Source: Thermostichus vulcanus str. 'Rupite'
GTDB taxonomy: Bacteria; Cyanobacteriota; Cyanobacteriia; Thermostichales; Thermostichaceae
NCBI RefSeq assembly: GCF_022848905.1
Contig: NZ_JAFIRA010000013.1
Span: forward strand, 1 to 64,000
Length of the DNA stretch: 64,000 bases
Direction: 5' to 3'
Under the pieces are notes generated by a model. That model searched no databases and was not told where the DNA came from. It was given only the letters and a program-made list of their open reading frames with translations. Below, piece by piece: positions 19,600-55,973 of the stretch; the stretch's first letter is position 1; the number at the start of each line of letters is the position of its first letter. Made by a program: the position numbers and the translations under genes.

Positions 19600-19716
19600 T
19601 TTAGAGCTAGGGATCCTTTACGAAAAGCAGCGTAAAGCCCCCGGTTTCTAACCGGGGGATATAAGCGCACAGGCTGAATTTATTCAGCAACAGAAATAGT
19701 ACATACAATAGTCCCC

Positions 19717-20916
19717 ATGAAACGGGTCACCACCACACTCAAGCTCAAGTTTCTTGACCTCAATGCGGTCAAAGCAGAGATGTTTAACCAGACGGTTTGT
19801 GCGACAACCGAACTGGCAAACGAACTGCTCCGCATCAGTCCAAAGGAACGAAAAGCATTAACAACCGCCAAAGTGGTGACACCACTCAAGTCGGCCCTCT
19901 CCAACCAGGTGATTCGTGTCCTGAAGGGGAAAGCCGGCCAGCGGGTCAAACACTTCAAAGTGTTCTGGCCAGAGGTCAACAACCAAAACTGGAAGCTGCA
20001 CAAAGTAGGTAGCACCTACTCAGTGAGTTTCCCCACGATTCAGGGTGACAAGCGGGTTCCCCTTGAGGTTAGCAGTTCCTACTATGCCGAGCGTCTTGAG
20101 CGCATCCTGGCCGAACAGGATTGTGAACGGGGAACCTTGAAACTCATGAAGCTACGGGGCTGTTGGTACGCGGTTGTATCTATCACTTGGGAAGTTCCCG
20201 AAGTGAAGAGCACAGAGCGGCTGGGTGTTGACCGGGGGCAGAACCGTTTGGCGGTGGCGGCCACCCGTTGGGGTCGGGCGGTGTTTTTTGGGGGTGGAGA
20301 GGTAGCCTATCGTCGTCGTCGTTTCCAGAAGCGTCGTGCCCAGTTGCAACAGGCGGGTAAATACCGAGCACTCAAGCGACTGGAGCGCAAAGAAGCCCGT
20401 TGGATGAGGGCGGTCAACCACACCGTTAGCCGTCGCATTGTGCGGTTTGCCAATGCGGTAAATGCAGATGTGTGGATGGAAGACCTCTCAGGTATCCGCC
20501 AATCCAGACAGAGCCAGAAGGCGCGTTCGGATGCCGGGAAATCGCGCCATACCTGGTCGTACTACGACCTGGAGTGGAAGGTTGCCTACAAGCTGGAGAT
20601 GGCGGGCAGGACGCTGCATAAACGTCCTGCTGCCTACACATCCAAAACCGACCACAGGACGGGGCTGATTGGTAAAAGGAGTGGGCATTTGTTCACCGGG
20701 CAGGACGGGTATTGCTGTGACGCGGACTGGAATGCCGCAATCTTGCTACGCAAGACGCGGAGCGTCATGAACATTGCCCAGTGGGACGGATTCTCGTGTC
20801 CTTTGAGTCTAAAAGAAGCCGTATCTGTAATGGGTACGGTCGGCTCAGGGGATGGGGTATTTGGCAATCCCCTGAACTCCATGAATCCCTCACAGCTTCA
20901 AGCTGTGGGGAGCTAG
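19717..20916 (+). CDS. tnpB: TnpB, RNA-guided nuclease of IS200/IS605 elements
   Basis: A 399-residue TnpB. The RuvC-like catalytic residues are visible: aspartate in RLGVDRGQNRLAVAAT, glutamate in VWMEDLSGIRQ and aspartate in CCDADWNAA. The usual four-cysteine zinc ribbon before the third motif is absent and replaced by YTSKTDHRTGLIGKRSGHLF, as in some cyanobacterial TnpB subgroups. After DADWNAA comes ILLRKTRSV, nine residues encoded by a 24-bp element plus 3 bp (20742-20768). Family members appear to go straight to a VNIANWDG-like sequence here. Despite this insertion the frame is open to the end, so activity is possible but unproven. Confidence 0.85.
   Translation: MKRVTTTLKLKFLDLNAVKAEMFNQTVCATTELANELLRISPKERKALTTAKVVTPLKSALSNQVIRVLKGKAGQRVKHFKVFWPEVNNQNWKLHKVGSTYSVSFPTIQGDKRVPLEVSSSYYAERLERILAEQDCERGTLKLMKLRGCWYAVVSITWEVPEVKSTERLGVDRGQNRLAVAATRWGRAVFFGGGEVAYRRRRFQKRRAQLQQAGKYRALKRLERKEARWMRAVNHTVSRRIVRFANAVNADVWMEDLSGIRQSRQSQKARSDAGKSRHTWSYYDLEWKVAYKLEMAGRTLHKRPAAYTSKTDHRTGLIGKRSGHLFTGQDGYCCDADWNAAILLRKTRSVMNIAQWDGFSCPLSLKEAVSVMGTVGSGDGVFGNPLNSMNPSQLQAVGS
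20742..20765 (+). repeat. 24-bp double mini-hairpin element inside tnpB
   Basis: CTTGC-TAC-GCAAG followed by ACGC-GGA-GCGT, then CAT. Compared with the copies at 49354 and 49381, the first half is identical. The second stem changed on both sides (GTGC/GCAC to ACGC/GCGT), which keeps the pairing. Confidence 0.85.
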
Positions 20917-20979
20917 AAGGGAGAATCCCCCGTTTTATAAACGGGGGAGTGTCAAATTGGAGCCGAACTCTCAACCAAT

Positions 20980-28193: not shown

Positions 28194-29570
28194 CTACGGT
28201 ACGCTACGCGAGCATCCTACGGATAGAGCGCGGGCTTCTCCAGTCTTTCGACCTTCGCGTTTTTGAGTGAGCCGATGCCCCAGGCCCACTTTTTTGATGA
28301 GCACCGCAGAGTTCACATCTCGCGGCATCGACGCTCCACACTGGGGGCAGTCATGCCAGCGGTCAGCTAGTTCCTTCGGGACTCGGTTCAGGCACATTGC
28401 ACAATGCTGAGATGTGCCAGCCGGGTTAACCTTCACAACCCACCGCCCAGCTTTTGCAGCTTTGTACGGAAGGATTTCGTTCAGGAACCCCGCTATCCCA
28501 GCATCAGCAAAACTTTTGTTCAGCCCAGACTTAGCCGCTTGACCATAGTGCTCCGCACCGCTGACGCGACTGGGCAAAAACTCACCGCCCTTACCTGTCT
28601 TTGGCTGGCAACGGCGGGTCATGTTGGCGACTTGCAAGTCCTCGACAAAGATTACGTCTGCCTTGTCCACCAACTCACCCGCCGTTTCAAAATGCCACTG
28701 CCGCCGCTGCCTAGCAATACGCTGGTGCAGCTTGGCAATTTTGGCATTGAGTTTCCGTCTTGCCTTCGACCCTTTGGGCCTCCGTTCACGCTTGGACTGA
28801 AGCTGGGCCAGCTTCTTTTCAGCCTGTCGGTAGAACTTCGGCGGTGTTTTCGTGGTGCCGTCTGAGCAGGCGATGAAGTACTCCAGCCCAGCATCTACCC
28901 CCAGACTGTTGGCCTCGGTCGGGACCACCTCAGGCAGCGGCTTATCATGCTCCGCATGGTTCGGAGAACCATCAGGCACCGACTTATCTTCCAGAGAAAA
29001 CGTCACGTACCACCCATCAGCCTTGAGCGATATTGACACTGTTTTGAGCGCAAACCCCTCAGGTAATGGCCTGTGGCAGATGAACTTCACCACCCCAATC
29101 TTGGGTAGCGTGACCCGATGGCGCTCCGCGCCGTGCGGAGCACGATTGTCCTTAATCCAGTCGTGACTGGCCTGGGGGTAGGTGAACGTCCGATAGCGAT
29201 TCTGCCCTTTGAACCGGGGCCTACCGCTACGCTTGCCCGAGCTATCACCCTTGATGAATCGCTCAAAGGCCAAATCAACCCGCCCCACCATGTCCTGAAG
29301 CACTTGGGAATGGATCTCTTTGTACCAAGGGCGTTCACCCTTCAGGGGCACCAAAGACCGCTTCTGACTGTAATAGTTGGGCTGCTCCCGTGGCTCGGCA
29401 ATACTCGCCACTAGCGGACAAGCGTTGATTGGGCAACGGTTCATCTCCCACCAGTCAAAGCGATCTGCCAGCAGCCAGTTGTACTGATGCCGCAACATCT
29501 CAAGCCAGCGACTCATCTGACATCGCTGTTGGTAAGTGGGTTGCAATCGGTATTGGTAGGCAATTCGCAT
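28194..29570 (-). CDS. tnpB: TnpB, RNA-guided nuclease of IS200/IS605 elements
   Basis: A 458-residue TnpB with a helix-turn-helix N-terminus (MRIAYQYRLQPTYQQRCQMS). Catalytic RuvC residues are in SLGVDAGLEYFIACSDG, VIFVEDLQVANM and SMPRDVNSAV. The zinc ribbon is complete: HCAMCLNRV and DCPQCGAS. Two small elements are embedded in frame. One encodes RAPHGAERH (29117-29146, at the end of the wedge-like domain). The other encodes VSGAEHYG (28548-28571) just before QAAKSGLNKS. The catalytic core is otherwise intact. The last residues, SVGCSRSVP, come from another short repeat at the element's end (28192-28216). In studied systems TnpB cuts DNA with a guide from the element's own 3' end. Confidence 0.88.
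   Translation of the reverse strand: MRIAYQYRLQPTYQQRCQMSRWLEMLRHQYNWLLADRFDWWEMNRCPINACPLVASIAEPREQPNYYSQKRSLVPLKGERPWYKEIHSQVLQDMVGRVDLAFERFIKGDSSGKRSGRPRFKGQNRYRTFTYPQASHDWIKDNRAPHGAERHRVTLPKIGVVKFICHRPLPEGFALKTVSISLKADGWYVTFSLEDKSVPDGSPNHAEHDKPLPEVVPTEANSLGVDAGLEYFIACSDGTTKTPPKFYRQAEKKLAQLQSKRERRPKGSKARRKLNAKIAKLHQRIARQRRQWHFETAGELVDKADVIFVEDLQVANMTRRCQPKTGKGGEFLPSRVSGAEHYGQAAKSGLNKSFADAGIAGFLNEILPYKAAKAGRWVVKVNPAGTSQHCAMCLNRVPKELADRWHDCPQCGASMPRDVNSAVLIKKVGLGHRLTQKREGRKTGEARALSVGCSRSVP
28548..28571 (-). repeat. 24-bp double mini-hairpin element inside tnpB
   Basis: Minus-strand reading: AGTCGCGTCAGCG (stem CGC/GCG, loop GTCA), then GTGC-GGA-GCAC. It encodes extra residues between LPSR and QAAKSGLNKS, where related TnpB proteins have only a short linker. 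Confidence 0.7.
29120..29143 (+). repeat. 24-bp double mini-hairpin element inside tnpB
   Basis: GGCGC-TCC-GCGCC followed by GTGC-GGA-GCAC, flanked on both sides by GAT. The flanking GAT pair looks like a 3-bp target duplication. It is antisense to tnpB and stays in frame. Confidence 0.85.
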
Positions 29571-43678: not shown

Positions 43679-45591
43679 GTTTTTGTCTCCTCTAAGTCTC
43701 CAGTCTCCTCCAATCGGTTGCCCCTGTGGGCTCGCAAACCCAACAGGGCTGTCACCCACCGCAGCTTAACCAACAGCACCCCGGTCAGACCCGTCAGCAA
43801 CCCTCCCAGCCAATCCATCGGGGTGCCCAGATAGCGTACCTGAATCTGATGCGCTCCAGGTGGGATCCGCACCTGTATCTGTCCCAACCCCGTGTGCTCT
43901 GCCGGTCTTAGGCGGCCATCCATCTCAACCCACCAAGCGGGGTAATAAAAGGTGCGCAACGCTACCCATTGGTCTCTGTCGGTGGGGTTGACCGCGCGAA
44001 AACGACGGTAGCCGTAGCTCCACCGCTCCACCTGGAGCTCCGCGGCTGGGGATCCCACCTCTGCCAACTCCCCTTGCCACCGCACCAGCGGATCCACACC
44101 GGGGGGCGGCATCGGGAAGGTCACCCCATGGGCGCGATATTCCGGCACATCCACCAAGGCCAACCCATCCGGAAAAATCCAGTGCCAGTACAAGAAAGGG
44201 GTGCCCGGTCGTTGTTGGGGCTCAATCGGGAATTGCTTGGCTGCCGAAAGGGTCTGAAAGGTTTGGATCACCTGCGGCTGAAAGCTGGTTCGGCCCAAAA
44301 CTTGCCATCCCAGCCCCACCTGGAGCACGACCGCCAAAACCGTTCCCAAAAGGAGCCAATACCGCCAGCTTTTTGGGTTCCAGCCCCATCCCACCAGGGA
44401 TCCCAGCAGCCAGGGCACGGTCACCGCGGTAATCCCCATCCAGCGCCAGGAAAACTGGATCCGCTGCAACGGCAAAACCCAGTCATAGATCCAACTCAAT
44501 AGATCCGTCATCATCAGCAAAGCCACCAGACTAACCCCAAGGCTGTACAGCACAAGGTCTCCGGGCGGCAATGAAGATGGAAATGGAGAGAGGGATCCCG
44601 GTTCCGCAGCCTCTTTTTTGCCATTCTGGTAGGAAGTTACCCGATTCACACCCCAGCGGCCCAGCAGTAAGAGTGCAGCCCCGGCAACCACCGCCACCAT
44701 CCAGCCCCAGTACCCCAGCAGGCCACTCTCAAACCAGTGATCGGTCAGTCGTGGTTGCAGACGGGTGAGGCCGCTCACCATCAGGCGATATTGCGGAAAA
44801 TAGTCCTCGGCAAAGTTGACCGAATCCACCTGAATCAGGCGCTGATCCAGGAATGCAGGCAGCAAAAAAAAGGCTGACCACCCCAGCCCTAATCCCAAGC
44901 CCAAATAGGAGCGTCCTACCTTTGGCCAGAGGGGATCCCGCCATCGCAACACCCAGGGCAAAGGCAGCACGATCAAAGTAAACAGCAGCAGCGTCGGCAA
45001 ATGGGAGAGCACCAACAGGCCATAACTGACGGCTACGGCCCAAATCGGCCAGAGCAAGCCCGGTTGGCAGAGCACCTGTAGCAAAGCCCAGAAAACCCAG
45101 GGCAACAGAGCAATTGCCCACACCTCCCCAATCGCTCCCCGCTGGTAAATATCCACCAGCCAATAGGGACCGGCCATCCCCATCCCCGCCAACATCAGAG
45201 CAATAGGGCGGGGCGCTACGGTCTGAATCAAGGCATAGAGGCCGGATCCCATCACCAGCATCGCCAAGCCCATACTGGCCACCAGCGAATCAGGCATCTC
45301 CAACCCCAAGATGCGAAAGGGCAGGGTCGCCACCATGCACAGGGGGGGATAAAAGGCAAACGTGGCATTGCCAAAGCCGAAGTTGGAAAATTCCAGCCAG
45401 CGGGGGTAAAACTGTCCGCCAAAAAATTGCCGCTGATATTGAAAAGCCCAACTGAGATTAAACTGCGTCGAATGGGTGATGGGATACCCCTGTTGCAACA
45501 TCGGCCAGAGCAGCAGCACCATTCCTGCCAACAACCCAGCCCCAACCAGCCAGAAGAACCCAACCTGACGCAGAACCTTGACCATGAGCAC
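43672..45591 (-). CDS. large polytopic membrane protein, PTPS-related/YfhO-like
   Basis: A 639-residue protein with about 12 hydrophobic segments. The first periplasmic loop (QGYPITHSTQFNLSWAFQYQ, FFGGQFYPRWLEFSNFGFGN) and a C-terminal soluble domain ending in a last helix (MDWLGGLLTGLTGVLLVKL) match the 6-pyruvoyl-tetrahydropterin-synthase-related membrane family, a misnamed group close to YfhO and glycosyltransferase-like proteins. The charged dyads QFNLSW and PRW suggest lipid-linked sugar transfer, but this is inference. The C-terminal end is a low-complexity LEETGDLEETKTC. It overlaps the alpha-E gene, so the minus-strand unit may include three genes. Confidence 0.7.
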   Translation of the reverse strand: MLMVKVLRQVGFFWLVGAGLLAGMVLLLWPMLQQGYPITHSTQFNLSWAFQYQRQFFGGQFYPRWLEFSNFGFGNATFAFYPPLCMVATLPFRILGLEMPDSLVASMGLAMLVMGSGLYALIQTVAPRPIALMLAGMGMAGPYWLVDIYQRGAIGEVWAIALLPWVFWALLQVLCQPGLLWPIWAVAVSYGLLVLSHLPTLLLFTLIVLPLPWVLRWRDPLWPKVGRSYLGLGLGLGWSAFFLLPAFLDQRLIQVDSVNFAEDYFPQYRLMVSGLTRLQPRLTDHWFESGLLGYWGWMVAVVAGAALLLLGRWGVNRVTSYQNGKKEAAEPGSLSPFPSSLPPGDLVLYSLGVSLVALLMMTDLLSWIYDWVLPLQRIQFSWRWMGITAVTVPWLLGSLVGWGWNPKSWRYWLLLGTVLAVVLQVGLGWQVLGRTSFQPQVIQTFQTLSAAKQFPIEPQQRPGTPFLYWHWIFPDGLALVDVPEYRAHGVTFPMPPPGVDPLVRWQGELAEVGSPAAELQVERWSYGYRRFRAVNPTDRDQWVALRTFYYPAWWVEMDGRLRPAEHTGLGQIQVRIPPGAHQIQVRYLGTPMDWLGGLLTGLTGVLLVKLRWVTALLGLRAHRGNRLEETGDLEETKTC

Positions 45592-45632
45592 TTCCCATCA
45601 CCCCAAAGCATGGGATCCCTGCTTGCAAAACC

Positions 45633-45741
45633 CTCTCAAATCTTAAGTTTCAGCGCAGAGCTTGCCCTTGAGCTGTTGGAAGTCTGTCACACCTTCTGTC
45701 ACACTGTGCTGAACAATCCGATTACTCTCTCAAATCCTAAG
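45633..45741. repeat. short direct repeats between moaC and the membrane-protein gene
   Basis: CTCTCAAATCYTAAG occurs at 45633-45647 and 45727-45741. Between them TCTGTCACAC is found twice with a 12-bp period (45683-45704). This gap is the upstream region of the membrane protein/alpha-E/acetyltransferase unit, so the repeats could be regulator sites. Confidence 0.4.
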
Positions 45742-45742
45742 C

Positions 45743-46279
45743 TCAATCCTGAGATCCAGCGCTTGCCGGTGGACTTGTTTCTGCCTCAAAGGGGCCCGAC
45801 TTGCCACCGTATTTGCGCAGCAGTCGAATATTCTCGATCACCATCGTCTTTTCCAGGGCCTTGGTCATGTCGTAGAGGGTAAGGGCAGCCACAGAAACCG
45901 CCGTTAGAGCCTCCATCTCCACCCCGGTTTGGGCGCTGGTTTTGACGGTGGCCGTGATGAGAAACCCCGGCAAATGGGGATCCGAATCCAGATCCACACG
46001 GACACTGCTAAGCGGCAGAGGATGACACAAGGGGATTAAGTCAGCAGTGCGTTTGGCAGCCATGATCCCGGCCAGTCGAGCCGTTTCCACCACATTCCCC
46101 TTGGATCCCTGACCGGCCAAAATAGCCTGTAGCGTGGCTTCAGCCATGCGCACCTGACCCTGAGCCGTAGCCAGACGAGGGGTCACGGGCTTTTCTGCGA
46201 CATCCACCATGCGCACTTGCCCAGATTCATCCAGGTGGGTGAGGGGTGAACCAGGATCGTAGGGTGGATCGGGCTGCAC
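45743..46279 (-). CDS. moaC: cyclic pyranopterin monophosphate synthase
   Basis: MoaC rearranges the MoaA product to cyclic pyranopterin monophosphate in molybdenum cofactor synthesis. The 178 residues contain [37 protein letters not shown] with the conserved cysteine-histidine, [20 protein letters not shown] and [20 protein letters not shown] with the catalytic lysines. The first 14 residues may be extra. No other moa gene is in the window. Confidence 0.95.
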
Positions 46280-46319
46280 GCCAAGAGCCTCCCGCCAAAG
46301 TTAGCTGCCGGATCCCCCA

Positions 46320-46811
46320 TCAGTAGCGAATCCAGGCGTAAGCCGCATCCGAAAGAACAGGCACCTCAGCATAGTGGCTGCGAATGTTTTGCACCCAGGC
46401 GTAAACGGTAACAGCAATCACCCCCAACAGGGCTGTGGTCGCCAAAACCCCCATGACCGCCCCAAGGCCGAAGCTGCCAAACAGCATCCCCAGCACCTGC
46501 ATCAGCAACTGCACCAGGAACAAGACGATATTCAGCAACAGGGCTTGGATGGTGTTAAAGCGGACGAAATGAGCCACGCGGGTATTCCGGACGACCAGGA
46601 ACAGCAACGCCAAGAAGATCCCCATCCCCAGCCAGCCAGTAGCAAAGGGTATCAGCCGAAATAAAGGGGCAAAAATCGGGATCAAGGCCGGTACCGAGTT
46701 AAACAAACCGGAACGCACAAAGCCAAACGGCAAAGCCGATACCAAAGGCAACAGGTAGGGAAGGGATCCCCACAGCCGATTGATGGGAGTAATTTCGCCG
46801 CGCCAGGTCAT
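46320..46811 (-). CDS. Tic20-family membrane protein
   Basis: A 163-residue protein with four hydrophobic helices. The cyanobacterial Tic20/Ycf60 signature is LWGSLPYLLPLVSALPFG at the N-terminus and VAHFVRFNTIQALLLNIVLF in the middle. In plastids Tic20 forms part of the inner-envelope protein import channel; in cyanobacteria the role is not established. It lies 40 bp upstream of moaC on the same strand. Confidence 0.87.
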   Translation of the reverse strand: MTWRGEITPINRLWGSLPYLLPLVSALPFGFVRSGLFNSVPALIPIFAPLFRLIPFATGWLGMGIFLALLFLVVRNTRVAHFVRFNTIQALLLNIVLFLVQLLMQVLGMLFGSFGLGAVMGVLATTALLGVIAVTVYAWVQNIRSHYAEVPVLSDAAYAWIRY

Positions 46812-47043
46812 ATCCGTCCATCCCCTTGGATACAGTAATTTTGCCAGCTTGCCTGCAGACTCTAATAGCCGCTCGTTTGCTCAACCCAAGAGCCGATTCA
46901 CAGTCGAAGCCTTGGGGATATTCTAGTCGATGGATTTTCGTGGGCTCAACGCGCTTGGGCGCAAGCTTGGCTGCTGCTCCCAAGTTGGAAAGATATTCTG
47001 GGGGAAAATGTTCAGGATGAGCGTTCTACTCAAGAGGGATTGG

Positions 47044-47049
47044 TATAAT
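47044..47049 (+). promoter_or_regulatory. extended -10 promoter element
   Basis: TGG-TATAAT at 47042-47049 is a perfect -10 hexamer with a TGn extension, 43 bp before the ATG at 47092. It supports the shorter start for the gene that follows. Confidence 0.55.
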
Positions 47050-47091
47050 CAGCAGCAATTTCTGACCGTTCAGAGTTTTTGGGCTTCCACC

Positions 47092-47559
47092 ATGAAAATC
47101 TCATCGTCTCCTGCTGCTCGCGTTGTCGGATCTTTTCTCTGGCGAGCTTGGTCTGGGTTGATTGGTTTTTTGAATGATCGGTTGTTGCCCGAGCGCTATC
47201 ACGTGCAGCCTGAGGCATTACCGCAGTGGGTCGCCCAAGTTTGGGCCCATTACCTCCGCTACCGAGAAGCGTCTCGCCCAGGTGCCGTCCAGTTTCGGGG
47301 TTTGACGGTGGATCCCAGCCATGTCCAGGATCCCCGTTCGGTTCGCCTTGGCTCTCGTCCGGTTTACTACCGGGGCTGCCGCATCGAGACAGTGGCTTAT
47401 TCCGGTGAGCCGACCTCGATGAACACCGTCGGAAAAGCCTTTGTACCGCCCTACTGGAAGCTCCTCAACAACCTGCGTCTGAAGTTGAATTTGGCGGACG
47501 CGGATCGCTATCAGGTCACCCCAGAGCTGCAGCGGGTGTATCGTGGCCGGGAGTTCTGA
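47092..47559 (+). CDS. protein of unknown function with a possible DUF4278-like motif
   Basis: 155 residues from ATG 47092, chosen because an extended -10 promoter at 47042-47049 would exclude the upstream ATG at 46930. The N-terminus is amphipathic and basic (ARVVGSFLWRAWSGLIGFLN), perhaps membrane-associated. The centre has two related YRG-type segments, VQFRGLTVDPS and VYYRGCRIETV, reminiscent of the short DUF4278 motif but not convincing. I do not recognise a family. It stands alone, convergent with a secreted-protein gene 36 bp away. Confidence 0.6.
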   Translation: MKISSSPAARVVGSFLWRAWSGLIGFLNDRLLPERYHVQPEALPQWVAQVWAHYLRYREASRPGAVQFRGLTVDPSHVQDPRSVRLGSRPVYYRGCRIETVAYSGEPTSMNTVGKAFVPPYWKLLNNLRLKLNLADADRYQVTPELQRVYRGREF

Positions 47560-47594
47560 GAACACGTGAGAACCCCCGGTTGCACGCACTGGGC

Positions 47595-47978
47595 CTAGAG
47601 GCTAGCACATTGGTCTTCTTTGTCTCCAGCTTGATTGCCGCCACCGGTGGGAGCTGGATTGTTTTCCTTGCACTGCAGATTTTCGCGGATCAGATTGTTG
47701 GTGAGGGTGAGGCCGCCGCGATTTTTCCAAGCCTGTAGATTCCCTTCCACATCGTTGGCTGTGGCATTGAGGGCACCACGATTCTCCTCAAATTGCAGAT
47801 CCCCATCGATGGTGACGGACAGGATGGATGCGGATCCCCCCTGTTTGCCATCCGGCACGATCAGGTTGTCTACTGTGGAAGCTCCCACAGCTCCGGTACA
47901 CCGAAAGTCGTCGGCATGGGCGGCAGGGATCCCGCTCAACAACAGCAGAGTTACCAATCCCAAAATTTGAGGTTTCAT
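47595..47978 (-). CDS. small secreted protein of unknown function
   Basis: 127 residues from ATG 47978, which places the signal peptide (KPQILGLVTLLLLSGIPAAH, cleavage near AHA-DDF) at the N-terminus; a longer reading to 48026 is less likely. The mature part, DDFRCTGAVGASTVDNLIV onward, has a repeating strand pattern (VTIDGDLQFEENRGALNA, VEGNLQAWKNRGGLTLTNN, IRENLQCKENN) with a period near 20 residues, typical of a beta-helix or beta-solenoid of the polymer-forming kind. Three cysteines are present. Likely periplasmic or extracellular; function unknown. Confidence 0.65.
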   Translation of the reverse strand: MKPQILGLVTLLLLSGIPAAHADDFRCTGAVGASTVDNLIVPDGKQGGSASILSVTIDGDLQFEENRGALNATANDVEGNLQAWKNRGGLTLTNNLIRENLQCKENNPAPTGGGNQAGDKEDQCASL

Positions 47979-48033
47979 CTTGGTCTCCGATAAAAGCATT
48001 TGAACGAACTTTGCCGCACTCCCCATCCTCGCT

Positions 48034-48532
48034 CTAGCAGGATAAGGTCAAGGCAAGGCAGGCGCAGCGAAAGCGGAGACTGCCAACAGTCTTTCGGTTA
48101 ACGGTGCTCCGCACCGCTGCGCGAGCGTCATATCCCTGCTCCTCAATGTATTGCTTGAGCACGTCCAAACTGGCTCCATCAGCAGCTGTACCCACGCTTC
48201 CCAAAAACTGGCTCCCAGTAAAACGGGCGCAAGTGTTCCGCAAACTCTTTGCGAATCTCCCTACTGCTAATCGTTTTTAATGTGTTGACCAGCCTAGAAA
48301 CAGCCACATCAGAGACCATATCAACCAATAGGTGAATATGGTCTTTTTCTCCCAGGTCAGCCTTGCATTCCAGCAGTAAGCAGTTCTGAGCCTCACAGAT
48401 TCGCTTAAACAGTCCTGCCATCCTTACTTCCATTTGCTCAGTGATACACGAATGTCGATATTTTGTAACAAACACTATGTGGAGATGAATCCTGTAAATA
48501 CAGTAGAAGAAAGCCCTGAAGCCCTTTAGCAT
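48034..48532 (-). pseudogene. tnpA: frameshifted Y1 transposase TnpA
   Basis: The first frame, from ATG 48532, reads an IS200/IS605 TnpA: CIYRIHLHIVFVTKYRHSCI, then the HUH motif in KDHIHLLVDM, and SSREIRKEFAEHLRPFYWEP. It stops at 48179 shortly after FYWEPVFGKRGYSC. The rest, including the catalytic tyrosine in SLDVLKQYIEEQGYD, is found in another frame (48243-48034), so one frameshift separates the HUH site from the nucleophile. A small repeat at 48104-48127 lies in the C-terminal part. The protein should be inactive unless frameshifting rescues it. Confidence 0.8.
48104..48127 (-). repeat. 24-bp double mini-hairpin element in the tnpA pseudogene
   Basis: Minus-strand reading: CGCT-CGCGC-AGCG (13 nt) followed by GTGC-GGA-GCAC (11 nt). 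The second half is identical to that of four other copies. The first half has a 4-bp stem and 5-nt loop. Confidence 0.65.
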
Positions 48533-48556
48533 GGCTGTCACTATGATAATTGTTCC

Positions 48557-50068
48557 ATGATAAACCGAAAGCCTATCATCCGTACCGATAAGTGGAGCCT
48601 TAACCCAACAGCGCAACAGCAAATGCTGTTTGCTGAAACGGTAAAGGTTTATCGTCGTTTGTGCAGGCATTTGGTGGGCGTGATTTACACCCATTGGGCA
48701 GAGCTAGGAGGATTGTCGAATCAGCAGATCATCCCTGCTGTGGAAAGGTTGATTCACCAAACTGCTCAAAACCCGAATGTGAAATACGCTTCGTTTGATA
48801 GGGTGTTTCACAAATTTCCAAGCTACTACCGCAGAGGTGCAATTGCCTTTGCATTTGGGCAAGTGAGCAGCTTTGTCGCCCGTTATCAGCAATGGCAATC
48901 AGGCACTCGCAAAAGACGAGAGGCTAACCCTCCCACCCTGAATGCGAATACAGGCTGCTATCCAACCCTGTACAAAGGACAGTGCTACAAACTGCATGGC
49001 TATGACCAAGTAGAAATCAAGGTTTTTACAGGTACGGATTGGATTTGGACAACCGTTCAGATTGCGGGGCTAGGAGAGCGGCATAGGGTCGATACCAACA
49101 AACTGTTATCGCCGTCGCTGATTTGCAATCAGCATTCGTGTCATCTCTCTGTCCCCTTTGAGTGTCACCCCGAAAAGCGGCAATCCGACCAAAACGTGGT
49201 TGCTGTTGACCTGGGCATCAACACTACAGCGACGGTTTCGGTTGTAACTTTTTGCGGTACTGTAATCCACCGTGAGTTGATTCACCCTGGAAGAGACATA
49301 GACCGCAGAGACAAACAGCTGAAATCGGTATCCGTCAGAGCAAGCAAGACGATCTTGCTACGCAAGGTGCGGAGCACCATCTTGCTACGCAAGGTGCGGA
49401 GCACCATGGGGAAAGGCGGAAAACTACAGAAGGGATTCTGCTCTAACACCTATCGAAAATGCCGCCATATCAACCAACAGATTGCACACATCGTCTCGAG
49501 GCGAATTGTGCAGATTGCCAAAGCATTTAACGCTGAGGCAATCGTATTTGAGAACCTAAAAGGCTGGAAGGCAACGGGAGGGCGGAAACGCTCCCCTTTG
49601 CGGCAGCGCTTTCAGGGTTGGCTCAAAAGCATGATTCGGGACTATAGCGAGATGAAATGGCAAGAGGCTGGGGGTAAAACCATCGATGTGATTGCTGCCT
49701 GTACCTCAAAGTTGGCGTATGACGGCTCTGGAGTTGTGGAGCGCGACGGCAGGAACTATGCTTTGGCTAAATTCGCCTCTGGTAAGCGATATTCGGCAGA
49801 CTTGAATGGCGCTTACAACATTGCTGCCAGAGGGATTCTTAAGCTCACTTGCCGAAAGGAGAGTGAGGGGTATTTGGGCAAAAGTTCCCGATACTCGCCT
49901 AGAAGCTGGGCTGGTTTGTGTGACCTGTGGGCGAATCAGAGAGTTACAGGTCAGCACCGACACCACCACCTCGCCTCAGCAGGTGGTGTGAGCTTCATCT
50001 GGTCCTTACCTAACCTAACTAGCTCTAGACCCAAAGATGCCCCGTCTCAACCCAACAAGCCAGGATAG
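48557..50068 (+). CDS. tnpB: TnpB, RNA-guided nuclease of IS200/IS605 elements
   Basis: A 503-residue TnpB. RuvC residues are in VVAVDLGINTTATVSVVTF, AIVFENLKGWKATGG and KRYSADLNGAYNIAARGI. The zinc ribbon is absent and replaced by CTSKLAYDGSGVVERDGRNY, typical of this subgroup. Between LKSVSVRASKT and MGKGGKLQKGFC are two identical nine-residue units, ILLRKVRST, encoded by a perfect 27-bp tandem duplication (49354-49407). Related proteins are expected to lack both. The last 25 or so residues are read from DNA beyond the element's right end (about 49998), so the native stop is missing. It may still be functional. Confidence 0.85.
   Translation: MINRKPIIRTDKWSLNPTAQQQMLFAETVKVYRRLCRHLVGVIYTHWAELGGLSNQQIIPAVERLIHQTAQNPNVKYASFDRVFHKFPSYYRRGAIAFAFGQVSSFVARYQQWQSGTRKRREANPPTLNANTGCYPTLYKGQCYKLHGYDQVEIKVFTGTDWIWTTVQIAGLGERHRVDTNKLLSPSLICNQHSCHLSVPFECHPEKRQSDQNVVAVDLGINTTATVSVVTFCGTVIHRELIHPGRDIDRRDKQLKSVSVRASKTILLRKVRSTILLRKVRSTMGKGGKLQKGFCSNTYRKCRHINQQIAHIVSRRIVQIAKAFNAEAIVFENLKGWKATGGRKRSPLRQRFQGWLKSMIRDYSEMKWQEAGGKTIDVIAACTSKLAYDGSGVVERDGRNYALAKFASGKRYSADLNGAYNIAARGILKLTCRKESEGYLGKSSRYSPRSWAGLCDLWANQRVTGQHRHHHLASAGGVSFIWSLPNLTSSRPKDAPSQPNKPG
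49354..49407 (+). repeat. two tandem 27-bp double mini-hairpin units in tnpB
   Basis: Each 27-bp unit consists of CTTGC-TAC-GCAAG, GTGC-GGA-GCAC and CAT. The units at 49354-49380 and 49381-49407 are identical. The first is preceded by GAT, the second by CAT. Confidence 0.92.
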
Positions 50069-50200
50069 GCTTGAACTCAGTCGCTTCTGGATGCTTTTGG
50101 ACAGGGAATAGGGATCCCTGCTCAGACCCAAAGAAGTCGTTACAATAATCAAGACAGGTGGGTGGATCGGCCCGTAGGGGAAGCGCCACAGGAATGTGCA

Positions 50201-51577
50201 ATGGGAGAGTCCGTCTTTAGCAGGTTAGGTCAATGGATCTCGAATACACCCCTGCGCTCTCTTGAGCAAGCTTATGAGGCCGCCCTTCGCATCAAAGCCA
50301 TCGAAGATCAACACTTCCACGGACAATCTATCAGGAGTGATGGAGAACATGGCCAAAATGTCAGTCGCTACTTTCAAATTCAACTGCGTCAACAACTCAG
50401 CCAAATAGAGCTGCGTCTGGCGGAATTTCGAGCCAGTAGCACCTTTTCTCGTCTGCCGGATCCCAGTCGCAACGGCAGCGGCCCCATTGCTTCCTCTGGC
50501 CAAGGTGCCCAAGATCAGGATAAAGAACCCCATCCTAGCGACCCTGTAAGCAACGACAAGAGCCCTGAAAACGGTCGCCAAAGCCGGGATCCCTCTATTT
50601 TGGAGAAATTGCAGTTTATCGACCAGGTGCTCTCTCGCTACAAACGTCCCCCTGGCAAACCCAAATCCATCGCTGCCCCGTTAGAGTCTCCCGATCAGCC
50701 CCAACAACTGGCCCCGACCCAGCCCACTCCCTCCGACAAAGGGGACAAGACAAGCCCCAACAATGGCAATGCTCCTGTTGCCTCCAAAATGGGGATCCTA
50801 CCCCGCTCCATTCTGCGCACTGCTAGCCAGATCCGGCGTGAGCTGAGTTCCCAAGCAGAAGAAGAATTGATCCGTGATTACCGCAACTCCCGCAATCGTA
50901 CGTTGGTATCGGTGCGGTTTCTATTGTTGTTGGCGATCTTGCCTCTGCTCACCCAAATTCTCTCGAAAAATTTTCTGTTTGGGCCGTTGATAGATCACCT
51001 GCAATACCAGAACCCTACTGCTATCACCCTCAGCCAGGAATTTCAGGAAAAAGCCCTGTCAGAGTTCGAGTTTTTTAAGGAGAAAATTGAGTTTGAGCGA
51101 GCCTTGCGCCACCAGTCCCCAGAACTGGATTTGGAGGCAGAAGATCAGCTCTCAGCCAAAGCAGAAGAACTGCTGCAAAAGTATGGCCGTAAGAACTCAG
51201 AAGGGATCAAAAATGTTTTTGCCGATCTATTGTCTCTGGTTGTATTCGGTTGGCTGATCTTCATTGGGCGAGAAGAAATCGAGGTACTTAAATCCTTTTT
51301 GGATCGCCTCATCTATGGTCTGAGCGATAGTGCCAAGGCTTTTATTATCATTCTCTTTACAGATATATTTGTAGGTTATCACTCACCCCATGGATGGGAG
51401 GTACTCCTCAGTAATTTAGCCGCTCACTTGGGGGTACCGGAGAACCGAGATTTGGTCTATGGCTTTATTGCGACTTTCCCGGTTTTTCTGGATACGGTGT
51501 TTAAGTATTGGATCTTCCGCTATTTGAATCGGGTATCGCCCTCTTCGGTGGCCACCTACCGGGCCATGAACGATTAA
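50201..51577 (+). CDS. pxcA: proton extrusion protein PxcA (CemA-like)
   Basis: 458 residues from ATG 50201, the start that gives the family-like N-terminus SRLGQWISNTPLRSLEQAYE; an upstream ATG-like start at 50162 is not needed. A long disordered proline-rich middle (about residues 90-230) is followed by four hydrophobic helices from about 245 to the end. RTLVSVRFLLLLAILPLLTQ and the C-terminal FIATFPVFLDTVFKYWIFRY match PxcA/CemA. PxcA drives light-dependent proton export across the plasma membrane and helps inorganic carbon uptake. A TACAAT -10-like box is at 50141. A wrecked IS begins just after its stop. Confidence 0.92.
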   Translation: MGESVFSRLGQWISNTPLRSLEQAYEAALRIKAIEDQHFHGQSIRSDGEHGQNVSRYFQIQLRQQLSQIELRLAEFRASSTFSRLPDPSRNGSGPIASSGQGAQDQDKEPHPSDPVSNDKSPENGRQSRDPSILEKLQFIDQVLSRYKRPPGKPKSIAAPLESPDQPQQLAPTQPTPSDKGDKTSPNNGNAPVASKMGILPRSILRTASQIRRELSSQAEEELIRDYRNSRNRTLVSVRFLLLLAILPLLTQILSKNFLFGPLIDHLQYQNPTAITLSQEFQEKALSEFEFFKEKIEFERALRHQSPELDLEAEDQLSAKAEELLQKYGRKNSEGIKNVFADLLSLVVFGWLIFIGREEIEVLKSFLDRLIYGLSDSAKAFIIILFTDIFVGYHSPHGWEVLLSNLAAHLGVPENRDLVYGFIATFPVFLDTVFKYWIFRYLNRVSPSSVATYRAMND

Positions 51578-51589
51578 CCCACTCCTTAG

Positions 51590-52110
51590 TCGCTAGTCGG
51601 CGGGAAGCCCCGTGCTCTCCCGTTGGCGCAGCCTGCCTGCATAGGGGAGTGTCAGGATGAGAGTCAGGGATGCTTACGGGAAGCAAGCGACTACCGACTC
51701 CAGCCAACCCACAAACAGCGATGTCAAGTGATGTCAAATGAGCCCCTGGCGCAACATGTTGCGCCATCAGTACAACTGGATGCTGGCCGATTGCTTTGAT
51801 GACCCTCCGGGTCGTGCGGAGCACGATTGGTGGGAGACGAACCGCTGCCCGGTCAATGCTTGCCCACTGGTGGCGAGTATTGCCGAGCTACGGGAGCAGC
51901 CCAACTACCTACTGCAGCCAGAAGCAGTCATTGCCCAGTCTCTCAGGAGATGGTGAAGCGGGTCAACTTGGCCTTTGATTTGAGCGGTTCACCAAGGGTG
52001 ATGGTTCGGGCAAGCCCCGGTTCAAGGGGCAGCACCGTTATCGGACATTCACCTATCCCCAGGCAAGCCACGACTGGAAGACACGGCGCAAGCTCCATTG
52101 GCTGTTGATG
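51590..52110 (+). pseudogene. wrecked copy of the 28.2-29.7 kb TnpB element
   Basis: The left end (TAGTCGGCGGG at 51595, the CCCCG-GCTCTCCC region, GGGGAG, GGATGAGAG) matches the start of the intact element on the other strand. Coding remains follow: RHQYNWMLADCFD, WWETNRCPVNACPLVASIAE and REQPNY match the intact TnpB nearly residue for residue, then FKGQ-like and YRTFTYPQASHDW-like pieces appear in other frames. The start codon and the whole catalytic part are gone. Two short insertions not in the intact copy are present, one in the left-end hairpin (about 51628-51648) and one at 51798-51827. Confidence 0.85.
51801..51824 (+). repeat. 24-bp double mini-hairpin element with a known empty site
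   Basis: GACCC-TCC-GGGTC followed by GTGC-GGA-GCAC, flanked by GAT on both sides. The intact relative has GCTTTGAC-TGGTGGG at this place (29448-29466, minus strand); here it is GCTTT-GAT-element-GAT-TGGTGGG. The net gain is exactly 27 bp. Confidence 0.93.
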
Positions 52111-52180
52111 TTGCTTTTGTCCTGCTAGGGGTTCAGTAGGGCAACCTAAGAGAGCCAGTCTCAAGTATGCGTGGGTTGCT

Positions 52181-53575
52181 TCAACCCCGCTCCAAAAAGG
52201 CAACTCCCTCCACATGCCCTGTTTGAGGAAAGAAGTCGGCTGCTCGCCATTGGGTCAGTCGATAGGATCCTTCTGCAAGGAGAACCTGGAGGTCTCGAGC
52301 CAGCGTCGCTGGATGACAACTGATGTAAACAAGCCTTTGGGGTTGTCGAAGCAACAGGGTCTCCAGCACCTGGCGATCGCAGCCGCGGCGCGGGGGATCC
52401 AGCACCACGATATCGGCAGGTGGCAAAGTGGGCAGCACCTGTTCGACGGTGCCCTGGAAAAATTGCACCGAGGTGATGCCATTGAACTGGGCATTGTAAC
52501 GAGCCTGGAGCACAGCTTCTGGCAGAGATTCCACCCCCACAACCCGTTTGGCCCGTTGCGCCAACAGCAAGGTGAAGGTGCCAATGCCGCAGTAGGCATC
52601 GAGGAGGGTTTCATGCCCTTGTAGTTGCAGTTGATCGGCAATCCAGGTAAAGAAGGCTTCCGCTTGCTCGGTATTCACCTGAAAAAAAGAAGTGCTGTCA
52701 ATCCAAAGGGAAAGGCCAGCAAACTCCTCCCGTAGGGCACCGCGGCCGGCAATCACTTCGGTTTGCGGGCCAAAAATGGTGTTGGTACGAGCCGGGTTGA
52801 GATTGAGGCAGACCCCCACCAGGTCGGGATAGCGATCCAGCCAGCGCTGGGCCCAAGTTTCTAGCTGAGGGAGCCGGCGACTGCGACTCACCAAGGTCAG
52901 CAGCACCTCGCGGGTACGGCGACCGATGCGCAAACCCAGATGACGCAGGTGCCCTTGATGCCGAGTTTCCTCATAAACACTCCAGCCAGTTTCTTGCAGA
53001 TCCCGCTTAATTTCCCTGAGGAACACATCCAGCCGTTCATCTTGGACGGGGCATTGGTTGAGATTGACCAGGCGGTGACTACCGGTTTGGTAGTAGCCCA
53101 TGCGCAACGGTTGCCCTTCCGGTTGGGCGATGGGGTAGGTGACTTTGTTGCGGTAGCGAAGCGGTTGCGGGGATCCCAAGATGGGCACCGGCTCCGGCAA
53201 AGGGATCCCCCCAATCCGTTGGAGGGCATCGGCCAAAATCTGCTGTTTGGTGGCCAACTGCATGGCATAGCTCACGTGCTGCCACTGACAGCCACCACAT
53301 TTGTCCGCCACGATGCAAGCCGGTCGTACCCGCTCGGGGGAGGGAACCTGTATCGATTGAATCCGCCCAATCAGGTAGTTGCGCCTGGTTTCGATCACCC
53401 GCACTTCTACCTGATCCCCAGGGATCCCTTGGGGTACGAAGACCACCTGTCCTACTCCAGGGCCAGCGGTATGGCCAATGCCATCCCCTTGGGGGGTAAG
53501 CCCGGTGATCTGCAGCGAGAGGAGGTCTCCCGGTTTGACCTGAGAGGGAGCATCCGAAAGGGGAGAAACAACCAT
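52181..53575 (-). CDS. rlmD: 23S rRNA (uracil-5-)-methyltransferase, RlmD/RumA type
   Basis: 464 residues from ATG 53575 (MVVSPLSDAPSQ); the reading up to 53686 has an unlike N-terminus. A TRAM domain comes first (LSLQITGLTPQGDGIGHTAG). The [4Fe-4S] cluster motif follows (CIVADKCGGCQWQHVSYAMQ), then the SAM-binding DAYCGIGTFTLLLAQ and the catalytic cysteine region VVLDPPRRGCDRQVLE with ISCHPATLARD. These enzymes methylate uridines of rRNA or tRNA at C5; which position is modified cannot be told. It is downstream of the broken histidine-kinase gene on the same strand. Confidence 0.92.
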   Translation of the reverse strand: MVVSPLSDAPSQVKPGDLLSLQITGLTPQGDGIGHTAGPGVGQVVFVPQGIPGDQVEVRVIETRRNYLIGRIQSIQVPSPERVRPACIVADKCGGCQWQHVSYAMQLATKQQILADALQRIGGIPLPEPVPILGSPQPLRYRNKVTYPIAQPEGQPLRMGYYQTGSHRLVNLNQCPVQDERLDVFLREIKRDLQETGWSVYEETRHQGHLRHLGLRIGRRTREVLLTLVSRSRRLPQLETWAQRWLDRYPDLVGVCLNLNPARTNTIFGPQTEVIAGRGALREEFAGLSLWIDSTSFFQVNTEQAEAFFTWIADQLQLQGHETLLDAYCGIGTFTLLLAQRAKRVVGVESLPEAVLQARYNAQFNGITSVQFFQGTVEQVLPTLPPADIVVLDPPRRGCDRQVLETLLLRQPQRLVYISCHPATLARDLQVLLAEGSYRLTQWRAADFFPQTGHVEGVAFLERG

Positions 53576-53597
53576 GGACGGCTCAAAGAAGGGCTTT

Positions 53598-54081
53598 CTA
53601 TTGTGGCATGGGCGTGGCATGGGTTTGGGATTGGGGGCTACCCTCCACAGGAAGCTGAACATAGAAGCAGGTTTGGTTATTGCCACTGCTGACTCGAATC
53701 GTTCCGTGGAGTTGTACCACCATTTGTTGAATCAGTGCCAATCCCAAACCTGTCCCCCCCTGTCGCCAGGGATCCCCGGAAGGGATACGATAAAACTTCT
53801 CGAAAATGCGCTCCTGTTGGTCGGGTGGGATTTCAACCCCGGTATTGGTAACGGCAAACCCGATTTGTCCAGTGGGATCCCCCCCCGCTACTGCCAGCGG
53901 AGAGGAGGCAGAGGGGTAGATCACCTCCAGTTGGATTTGAGCACCAGGAGGGGAATACTTACAGGCGTTGTTCAGCAGTTCCGCCAAAATCCGCCCCAAA
54001 TAGTTGCAGTCCGTCCGAAGCTGAGTGAGGGTGGGATGCAGCGTCAGGGTCAGGGTTTGCTGCCGCTGTTGGGTGCGGGTA
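53598..54081 (-). pseudogene. histidine kinase cut by an IS: ATPase domain only
   Basis: The ATPase (HATPase_c) half of a sensor histidine kinase is readable from 54081 down to 53598. The N-box is RILAELLNNACKYSPPG, a G1-like region NTGVEIPPDQQERIFEKFY follows, and the G2 box is QGGTGLGLALIQQMV. Immediately upstream of HTRTQQRQ the reading enters the right end of a TnpB remnant. The phosphoacceptor histidine and the whole sensor part are missing, and none is seen beyond the remnant. It is therefore dead as a kinase, though a fused open frame (to 54215) could still give a short protein. Confidence 0.8.
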
Positions 54082-54540
54082 TGAAGCTCTCCCACCTGGC
54101 GTAGCCGAGGTGGGAGTGTCCTATGCCAATCTCGAACTATCCAGAGTCCAGAGATCACATAGACAAGCCCAGCTTCTAGGCGACCGTCCAGAGCTTTTGC
54201 TGAAACGGCCCTCACTGTCCTTTCGGCAAGTGAGCTTTAAAACACCCCTGGCAACGATATTTTGGTTTCCGTTGAGGTCGCGATTATAGCGTTTGCCAGA
54301 AGCAAATTTTGCTAGCGCGTAGTTCTTTGAATCGCGCGTGACAATCCCAGAACCATCGTAGGCCAGCTTCGAGGTGTAGGCGGCAACGATATCAATCACC
54401 TTTCCACCCAGTTCGCGCCACTTCATTTCGGTGTAGTCGCGGCTCATCCCTTTGAGCCAACCCTGAAAGCGCTGGCGCAGGTTAGAGCCTCGCCCCCCCA
54501 CCTGTTGCCTTCCAACCCTTCAGCCCCTCAGAGCTGATTC
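54082..54540 (-). pseudogene. 3' remnant of an IS605-type tnpB
   Basis: Minus-strand reading from about 54540: LKGWKATGG, then after a frame change LRQRFQGWLKGMSRDYTEMK, YTSKLAYDGSGIVTRDSKNY, KRYNRDLNGNQNIVARGVLK. It aligns closely with the C-terminal third of the tnpB at 48557-50068, but the catalytic AYNIA region is altered. The right-end hairpin TCCCACCT/AGGTGGGA and GAGCTTCAT finish the element at about 54082, inside the kinase gene. The first two thirds of the element are absent. Confidence 0.85.
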
Positions 54541-54686
54541 GCTCAAATGAAGATTGGGTCAGCCTTTTGAGGCTAAGCACGAGACCCTAATGCTGTCTGA
54601 GATACTGTCTAGCCCAACCATCGCTCAGCCAAGTGCCAATCCACTCTCTATGCTCGTAAGCTGGGTTAGGGCTCGCAACGGAATGG
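54541..54686. other. gap upstream of the TPR-methyltransferase
   Basis: No gene is seen. The stretch should contain either the lost part of the IS or host DNA of the broken kinase; no kinase-like residues could be found in any frame. It presumably holds the promoter of the gene at 54687. Confidence 0.4.
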
Positions 54687-55973
54687 ATGGCAAAACGCAA
54701 GGGATTTGGATCAGGGGCTAAGAAACAGCCACCCCTATCAGAATGGGTTCGCCAAGCAGAGGCCCAACTGCGGCAAGGCCAGGTGATTCGATGTCGGCAA
54801 CTCTGCCAACAGGTGCTTTCGCAGCAGGGATCCCTTTCTGGAACTGCTGAAGAAATGGCAGTTGCACAGGCATATGCCCTGTTGGGTCAAATTGAACAGG
54901 GATGCGGGCACTTTCCCGCCGCCATGTTGCACTACCAGCAGGCTATCTTGACCTGTCCACCTACCGCTCCGGCTAGCTTGATTGCCGAGTACCACGCCCT
55001 GTTGGGGAGACTGTTGCGCCAGATGGGGGAGAAGAAACAGGCCCAGTCGTTATTTGAACAGGCGCTGGCGCGGGATCCCGATTTGCTACTGGCGCGGGTG
55101 GGGTTGGCGGATCTGCTCCAGGCGCAAGGGGAGTTCGAGGTGGCCCTGGAGCACTATACCCTAGCTTGGCAGGGATCCCAGCAGGAGCCGGATATTCCGT
55201 ATCAGATTGGGATGTGTTTGTGGAAACAGGGGCAAGGATCGCAGGCAAAGGGTTGGTTTCAGCAGGCCCTCTCTCTACAGCCGGATCACAGCGATGCCCG
55301 TTACATGCTGGCGATTTTGGGAGAATTGCCCTTACCGGATAAAACTCCCGCCGCTTGGGTAACCCGCCTGTTCGATGAATATGCCCCAAGATTTGAGCAG
55401 CATTTGCTACAAAAGCTGAACTACCAGGGACCCCAGGCTCTGTGGAACGGGATCCTAGCGGTGGCAGAAGCCCAAGGATCTGCCCCTCGGTTTGAACAGG
55501 CCCTGGATTTGGGCTGCGGCACAGGCTTGGTGGGATCCCTAGTGCGCCCCTACGTGCAGCGGTTGTGGGGAGTGGATTTGTCCGGTCGCATGGTGGAAAT
55601 GGCCCGTCAAAAGGGCCTTTACGACCAGTTGGTGCAAGGGGATTTGCTGGAGCTGCTGCAGCGGACACCGGAACGTTACGACCTGATCTTGGCGGCAGAT
55701 GTGTTCATTTATTGGGGAGATTTGGCTCAGGTGTTCCCAGCCTGTGGCCGAGTGTTAACCTCCGGTGGGCTTCTGGCCTTTACGGTTGAGCAGGGATCCC
55801 TCTCCGGCTACGCACTGGGATCCACAAGCGGTCGCTTTGTCCACTCCGAATCCTATATACGGCAGCAGGCGGAACGGGTGGGACTGGATCCCGTATACCA
55901 TCAGGACTTTACCCTGCGGCGCGAGGGAGAAACGGGTGTACCCGGAGCAGTATGGTGTTTGCGTCAGCGGTAA
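54687..55973 (+). CDS. TPR protein fused to a class I SAM-dependent methyltransferase
   Basis: A 428-residue protein. A basic start (MAKRKGFGSGAKKQPP) is followed by five or so tetratricopeptide repeats (about residues 15-215; LFEQALARDPDLLLARVGLA is one). The methyltransferase domain (about 240-425) has motif I FEQALDLGCGTGLVGSLVRP, VDLSGRMVEMARQKGLYD, and motif IV YDLILAADVFIYWGDLAQVF. The substrate is unknown. The combination resembles a bacterial family in which the repeats hold a protein or small-molecule target. Its 3' end overlaps the convergent comFB gene by 10 bp. Confidence 0.85.
   Translation: MAKRKGFGSGAKKQPPLSEWVRQAEAQLRQGQVIRCRQLCQQVLSQQGSLSGTAEEMAVAQAYALLGQIEQGCGHFPAAMLHYQQAILTCPPTAPASLIAEYHALLGRLLRQMGEKKQAQSLFEQALARDPDLLLARVGLADLLQAQGEFEVALEHYTLAWQGSQQEPDIPYQIGMCLWKQGQGSQAKGWFQQALSLQPDHSDARYMLAILGELPLPDKTPAAWVTRLFDEYAPRFEQHLLQKLNYQGPQALWNGILAVAEAQGSAPRFEQALDLGCGTGLVGSLVRPYVQRLWGVDLSGRMVEMARQKGLYDQLVQGDLLELLQRTPERYDLILAADVFIYWGDLAQVFPACGRVLTSGGLLAFTVEQGSLSGYALGSTSGRFVHSESYIRQQAERVGLDPVYHQDFTLRREGETGVPGAVWCLRQR

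Follow-up and report, generated by a model that had tools for sequence, protein, structure and literature searches.

At one codon of a wrecked TnpB gene in Thermostichus vulcanus str. 'Rupite', a short unit interrupts a sequence that an intact relative carries without it, both genes lying in the 64,000-nucleotide stretch of DNA analyzed here (the window). This raises the question of whether the unit is a discrete piece of DNA that is gained or lost precisely and, if so, what it is and how it would move.

A 27-bp difference between two TnpB genes

In the wrecked copy, positions 51798-51827 read GAT GACCCTCCGGGTCGTGCGGAGCAC GAT within CTTTGA...TGGTGGGAG, and the minus-strand reading of the intact relative at the same site is CTTTGACTGGTGGGAG (Table 1). 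The stretch TTTGAT[27 bp]TGG of the wreck corresponds to TTTGACTGG in the intact gene and to TTTGATTGG in two copies of a related genome, that of the sister species (G004; the present genome is G000), where these two copies have TTTGATTGGTGGG, the exact pre-insertion sequence. By tblastn, the wreck shares 69% and 72% identity with the intact TnpB and contains internal stops, and at the protein level it reads FD[DPPGRAEHD]WWE against FDWWE, a difference of exactly 27 bp that is in frame. The original prediction of a filled and an empty site within one window, differing by exactly nine codons, is confirmed by this alignment. When the TnpB family is aligned at the focal codon, every other alignable homologue, in the same genome and in five congeners, is empty. 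A plasmid search with the wrecked TnpB as query gave no match.

Besides this pair we found at least 14 further filled/empty pairs, all of exactly 27 bp (24 bp for the 22-bp cores of a sister type). Differences of exactly 27 bp separate paralogues at window 51801, 29120, 28946 and 20742, and also at L089 16793 and L105 14494; elsewhere along its length the intact TnpB itself carries two 27-bp elements and one 24-bp insert, seen as gaps against L002. In the 13-copy IS family (window 19615-20955 plus 12 other copies), inserts occur at five sites, always 24 or 27 bp long and with sharp edges. All four combinations of filled and empty are seen for two of the five, which implies that the IS copies also recombine or undergo gene conversion with one another, or that units are gained repeatedly or lost precisely. 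Insertion is favored over loss, since the outgroup homologues are empty. That a discrete unit is gained or lost precisely, as had been claimed from the single pair, is supported at many independent sites by sharp edges and fixed lengths.

Table 1. Coordinates of elements, empty site and host genes in the window.
Feature	Position	Strand	Basis or remarks
Focal element	51799..51827		AT duplication 51799-51800, 25-bp core GACCCTCCGGGTCGTGCGGAGCACG 51801-51825, AT duplication 51826-51827
Wrecked TnpB (IS605 OrfB) copy, holds the focal element in frame	51723..52108	+	tblastn
Intact TnpB, empty at the focal codon	28194..29570	-	Pfam OrfB_IS605 and Cas12f1-like_TNB
Empty site in the intact TnpB relative (CTTTGACTGG)	29448..29466	-	Sequence comparison
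Sister-type 24-bp insert (TCGCGTCAGCGGTGCGGAGCAC + 2 bp)	28547..28570	-	Exact 24-bp gap vs L002, L003, L041, L048; edges uncertain by a few bases
27-bp element	28944..28972		Core 28946-28970, in frame (GSPNHAEHD); 27-bp difference vs L002
27-bp element	29118..29146		Core 29120-29144, in frame (RAPHGAERH); L002 reads GGGCAATCGG, 27 bp shorter
27-bp element in TnpB of the 13-copy IS family	20740..20768		Core 20742-20766; copies both filled and empty
Two tandem 27-bp units in a TnpB-like ORF	49352..49407		Cores 49354-49378 and 49381-49405

Anatomy of the unit

A structural scan over 855 kb (the window and stretches of the same genome) yielded a hairpin-doublet family. Its unit is a 25-bp core, X-h1-Y-h2-X, with AT on both flanks, in which X pairs with Y and two hairpins with 4-bp stems and 3-nt loops abut each other, the TCC-type first and the GGA-type second. 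Written out, the layout is X, four-base stem, TCC/TAC, stem, Y, four-base stem, GGA/GTA, stem, X, and reverse complementation leaves the layout of the entire unit unchanged (AT...CTCCG...CGGAG...AT). The G000 DNA scanned holds 59 hairpin doublets at fixed loop spacing, against none in three Markov controls, and their loop-to-loop spacing is quantised (12 in 52 cases, 11 in 7, and no other values). Within the window the core pattern occurs twice with up to three mismatches, the maximum over 100 shuffles being 0, and the focal element scores 44.7/48.1 bits with the covariance model. Among 17 distinct copies, 99.3% of cells are paired and both-side changes number 44 compared with 15.5 after shuffling, a value that none of 500 shuffles reached. 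These covariation and spacing counts show that the stems can change provided that pairing is kept, and that the loops, the closing C-G pairs and the spacing are fixed. Folded as single strands, some cores favor the two-hairpin form and others a single long hairpin, and the predicted folding is modest, with z from -0.7 to -2.5.

Two other readings of the structure were rejected. A known RNA family is one, as window 45000-55000 gave no Rfam match at the gathering threshold; the other is selection for openness in all six frames, as open cores (8/29) are matched by 29% among shuffled cores. Stops are not unusually rare in the cores.

Target site and AT duplication

The original prediction divided the 27 bp into a 24-bp core and a 3-bp GAT duplicate. 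AT flanks the unit on both sides at 31 of 46 distinct non-tandem sites, on one side at 14 and on neither side at 1, but only 13 of 31 distinct sites show the core's last base in front of the left AT. The site at window 20742 agrees with this count: its filled form is GCAAT[25-bp core]ATGAAC, with AAT on the left and CAT on the right, where the empty paralogues have GCAATGAAC. A 3-bp GAT/NAT duplication is therefore rejected; the duplication is 2-bp AT, and in the focal GAT the G is the terminal base of the core. Duplication of the flank is thus general, as had been supposed, but at 2 bp rather than 3, and the core becomes 25 bp long.

Outside the AT, YR is preferred. A pyrimidine stands at position -4 in 47 of 56 cases (background 47.5%, p=2e-8) and the target conforms to YRAT in 33 of 56 (background 27%, p=7e-7), its overall shape being symmetric and YRATYR-like. 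Because the YR flanking bases also stand in the empty sites, we conclude that the target is chosen.

Units in housekeeping and other single genes

Exact 27-bp gaps between species were found in genes for a 2OG oxygenase (three empty congeners), an aldose epimerase, a Methyltransf_28 protein (the empty version being TTGGATTGGGA) and a FAD-binding protein, and also in an aminotransferase-V (cysteine-desulfurase-like) gene. RecD2, RuvC, FabF and DUF1688 proteins carry units in open frame. The orthologues of FabF and RuvC have variable termini where exact length was compared across species, and the RecD2, CheA and HEAT-like hosts have no close orthologues in the genus. Many units are intragenic, and the extragenic placement of REP-type repeats was not found. 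In the ProA-like gene a unit is present in G004, decayed but still 27 bp long in the G000 orthologue, partly deleted in G005 and absent from two congeners; from these states it follows that units are inherited and then erode. The elements are thus dispersed through transposon and housekeeping genes alike, and vertical inheritance is followed by decay. In 10 of 13 intact non-TnpB genes the AT falls at codon positions 2-3; across the ORFs of the window, 38% of AT dinucleotides do so (p=0.005). The bias fits a picture in which polar, tolerated inserts are the ones that survive.

Distribution across genomes

Counted on both strands, covariance-model matches number 133 in G000 (approximately 60-65 units) and 65 in G004; the same model gave few matches in the remaining congeners and, in a different genus of the family, one clear unit. 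In an exact-pattern scan of 85,000 genomes, the commonest core type was found in only one other cyanobacterial MAG, Synechococcales cyanobacterium C42_A2020_086, which has a tandem array and one unit in frame within a transposase-like ORF (L224 4390-4414; IERLWR[SCSARFGEPS]IKYE). The commonest core pattern was absent from the viral contigs. A scan of 386 genomes of the phylum revealed no further carrier, a weak result of low sensitivity in which only 19 candidates were scored per genome.

Sister elements and other repeats

The sister type has a 22-bp core made of two abutting 4-3-4 hairpins and inserts, with AT, as 24 bp in the 13-copy IS family; the TCGCGNCAGCGGTGCGGAGCAC type likewise inserts as 24 bp and also builds 24-bp tandem arrays. 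The sister element TCGCG(N)CAGCGGTGCGGAGCAC occurs at window 28547-28570 (minus strand), L087 11687-11983, L139 1628-1930 and L102 16119-16182, as exact 24-bp inserts in TnpB genes and as 24-bp tandem arrays, one array lying within an ORF with Mur ligase domains. A longer dispersed repeat of more than 100 bp, with TCGCGACAGCGGTGCGGAGCACTCT at conserved positions (L091 2630, L091 19549, L094, L077, L066, L081, L155 and L173), is possibly a MITE carrying a sister unit. At L223 1516-2181 (minus strand) lies a RAYT-like Y1 transposase ORF with an internal minisatellite (repeated PIAPIPTTSA). The palindrome GGGATCCC is over-represented, with AGGGATCCCT occurring 155 times in 855 kb, and is probably this lineage's counterpart of HIP1.

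How the element would move

We consider it likely that the unit is a non-autonomous 25-bp mobile element, AT-X-stem-TCC-stem-Y-stem-GGA-stem-X-AT, which inserts at YRAT with a 2-bp AT duplication and is recognized by its fold by an enzyme acting in trans. Precise insertion, the 2-bp duplication and the target consensus together indicate such an enzyme, and recognition of the fold is indicated by stems that are free and loops that are fixed. What the sequences show is precise insertion at the AT inside a loose YRAT target, with the AT duplication left behind; each event adds 27 bp, or nine codons, so the reading frame is kept. We infer that what the enzyme reads is the fold of the hairpins, not the sequence of their stems, and that it cuts at AT. 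Movement as a single strand, in the manner of the IS200/REPIN transposases, is our best guess and would fit the size best, since a 25-bp unit has no room for paired double-stranded ends. Reinsertion at the flanking AT, or slippage, may have given rise to the tandem 27-bp arrays.

A candidate for such an enzyme is an HUH/Y1 transposase (IS200/IS605 TnpA or RAYT) that moves the units in the way proposed for REPINs, recognizing the hairpin doublet in ssDNA and cutting beside AT, but we regard this as doubtful. REPINs consist of two hairpins in inverted orientation with two alternative folds (PMC3116915), a model that the inverted doublet of the unit matches, folding either as two short hairpins or as one long one. 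G000 has Y1 genes and one ORF that, judging by its sequence, is RAYT-like. However, the number of Y1 genes is uncorrelated with the number of elements across genomes: G001 matches Y1 19 times, yet the scan of relatives detected no element there at E<=0.001; the Y1 copies of G004 all have an internal TAG, yet elements are many; and G045 has elements and no Y1 match. IS200/IS605 TnpA as the obvious driver is therefore unsupported, and among Y1 transposases, the family compared, no mobilising enzyme was identified. Nor was any element found near the RAYT-like ORF in L078, the stretch searched with the model, which reaches the edge of the ORF. The ends of the unit have no GTAG or CGTC tag, GTA or GGA occurring in the loops only, and an AT duplication is not known for REPINs.

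Another candidate is a recombinase that cuts both strands with a 2-bp stagger, either a serine recombinase or a DDE transposase of the IS630/Tc1 type, for which CTCCG...CGGAG would serve as terminal inverted repeats. It would account for a duplication that is invariant and palindromic, for fixed parts that are symmetric about the junction AT and for the symmetric YRATYR-like target. We nonetheless think it improbable, because a 27-bp double-stranded circle, or ends just 25 bp apart, is physically implausible, recognition of a duplex leaves unexplained why half-site stems vary yet self-pair, and the target of IS630 is TA, not AT. Replication-coupled template switching through the 2-bp AT microhomology, with the hairpins as stop points and no dedicated enzyme, finds some favor in the tandem 27-bp and 24-bp arrays and in the short homology that bounds the insert, but it would give ragged edges where those observed are identical at more than 10 unrelated loci; with a YRAT preference that reaches beyond the shared AT, and a family abundance that differs strongly between congeners, it is very improbable. 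To gene conversion between TnpB copies as the sole spreader of the two states, or to ordinary length divergence, we give next to no credence. The four combinations in the 13-copy IS family speak for conversion, which may contribute within IS families, but the lengths are exact, the sequences form one structural family, and units sit in unrelated single genes (RecD2, RuvC, FabF, epimerase, 2OG oxygenase), several with empty orthologues; as a full explanation, conversion is refuted by the housekeeping-gene pairs.

Returning to the proposed fold-recognized element served in trans, we suggest tentatively that it could be among the smallest mobile elements known to duplicate their target (25 bp) and be recognized purely by fold; an undescribed enzyme would drive it, and in housekeeping genes it would act as a mutagen that inserts nine codons into the protein.

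Comparison with known systems

Small dispersed repeats (SDRs) of cyanobacteria, tens of bp long, are reportedly regarded as mobile and often lie within other repeats (Elhai et al. 2008). They have been described in other, filamentous cyanobacteria. The unit resembles them in its size of approximately 20-30 bp, its dispersal in a cyanobacterium and the evidence of mobility, and the family is placed beside them as a new variant, the comparison being with descriptions of SDRs rather than with SDR sequences. HIP1 is likewise a short cyanobacterial palindrome, but an abundant 8-bp word rather than an insertion; the over-represented word of this genome is GGGATCCC. Like MITEs, the unit is non-autonomous, has terminal symmetry, duplicates its target and leaves filled and empty sites with precise edges, but it is far shorter, its half-sites pair with themselves, and a related autonomous element was not found.

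With the REPIN/RAYT system the unit shares the inverted hairpin doublet, the two alternative folds, non-autonomy and dispersal. It differs in having no GTAG or CGTC tag and flanks that vary apart from AT; in its 25 bp (REPINs being much longer), variable stems and 2-bp AT duplication; and in lying inside genes, whereas REPINs lie between them, with no RAYT association found in L078. Rickettsia palindromic elements (RPE; Ogata et al.), as summarized in PMC10969869, are approximately 150 bp long and stand in frame in protein genes, housekeeping genes included. Both they and the unit are palindromic in-frame inserts that reach housekeeping genes, but the unit adds 27 bp (nine codons) and shares neither sequence nor architecture with them.

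Significance

Very small mobile repeats have already been proposed in cyanobacteria. The family described here offers many clean filled/empty pairs, a defined duplication of 2 bp and a consensus for the target. Its covariation tells shape apart from sequence, and close genomes with and without units are at hand. These features make the search for the mobilising enzyme tractable both comparatively and experimentally. It also constitutes a repeatable source of nine-codon in-frame insertions in proteins such as RuvC, RecD2 and FabF.
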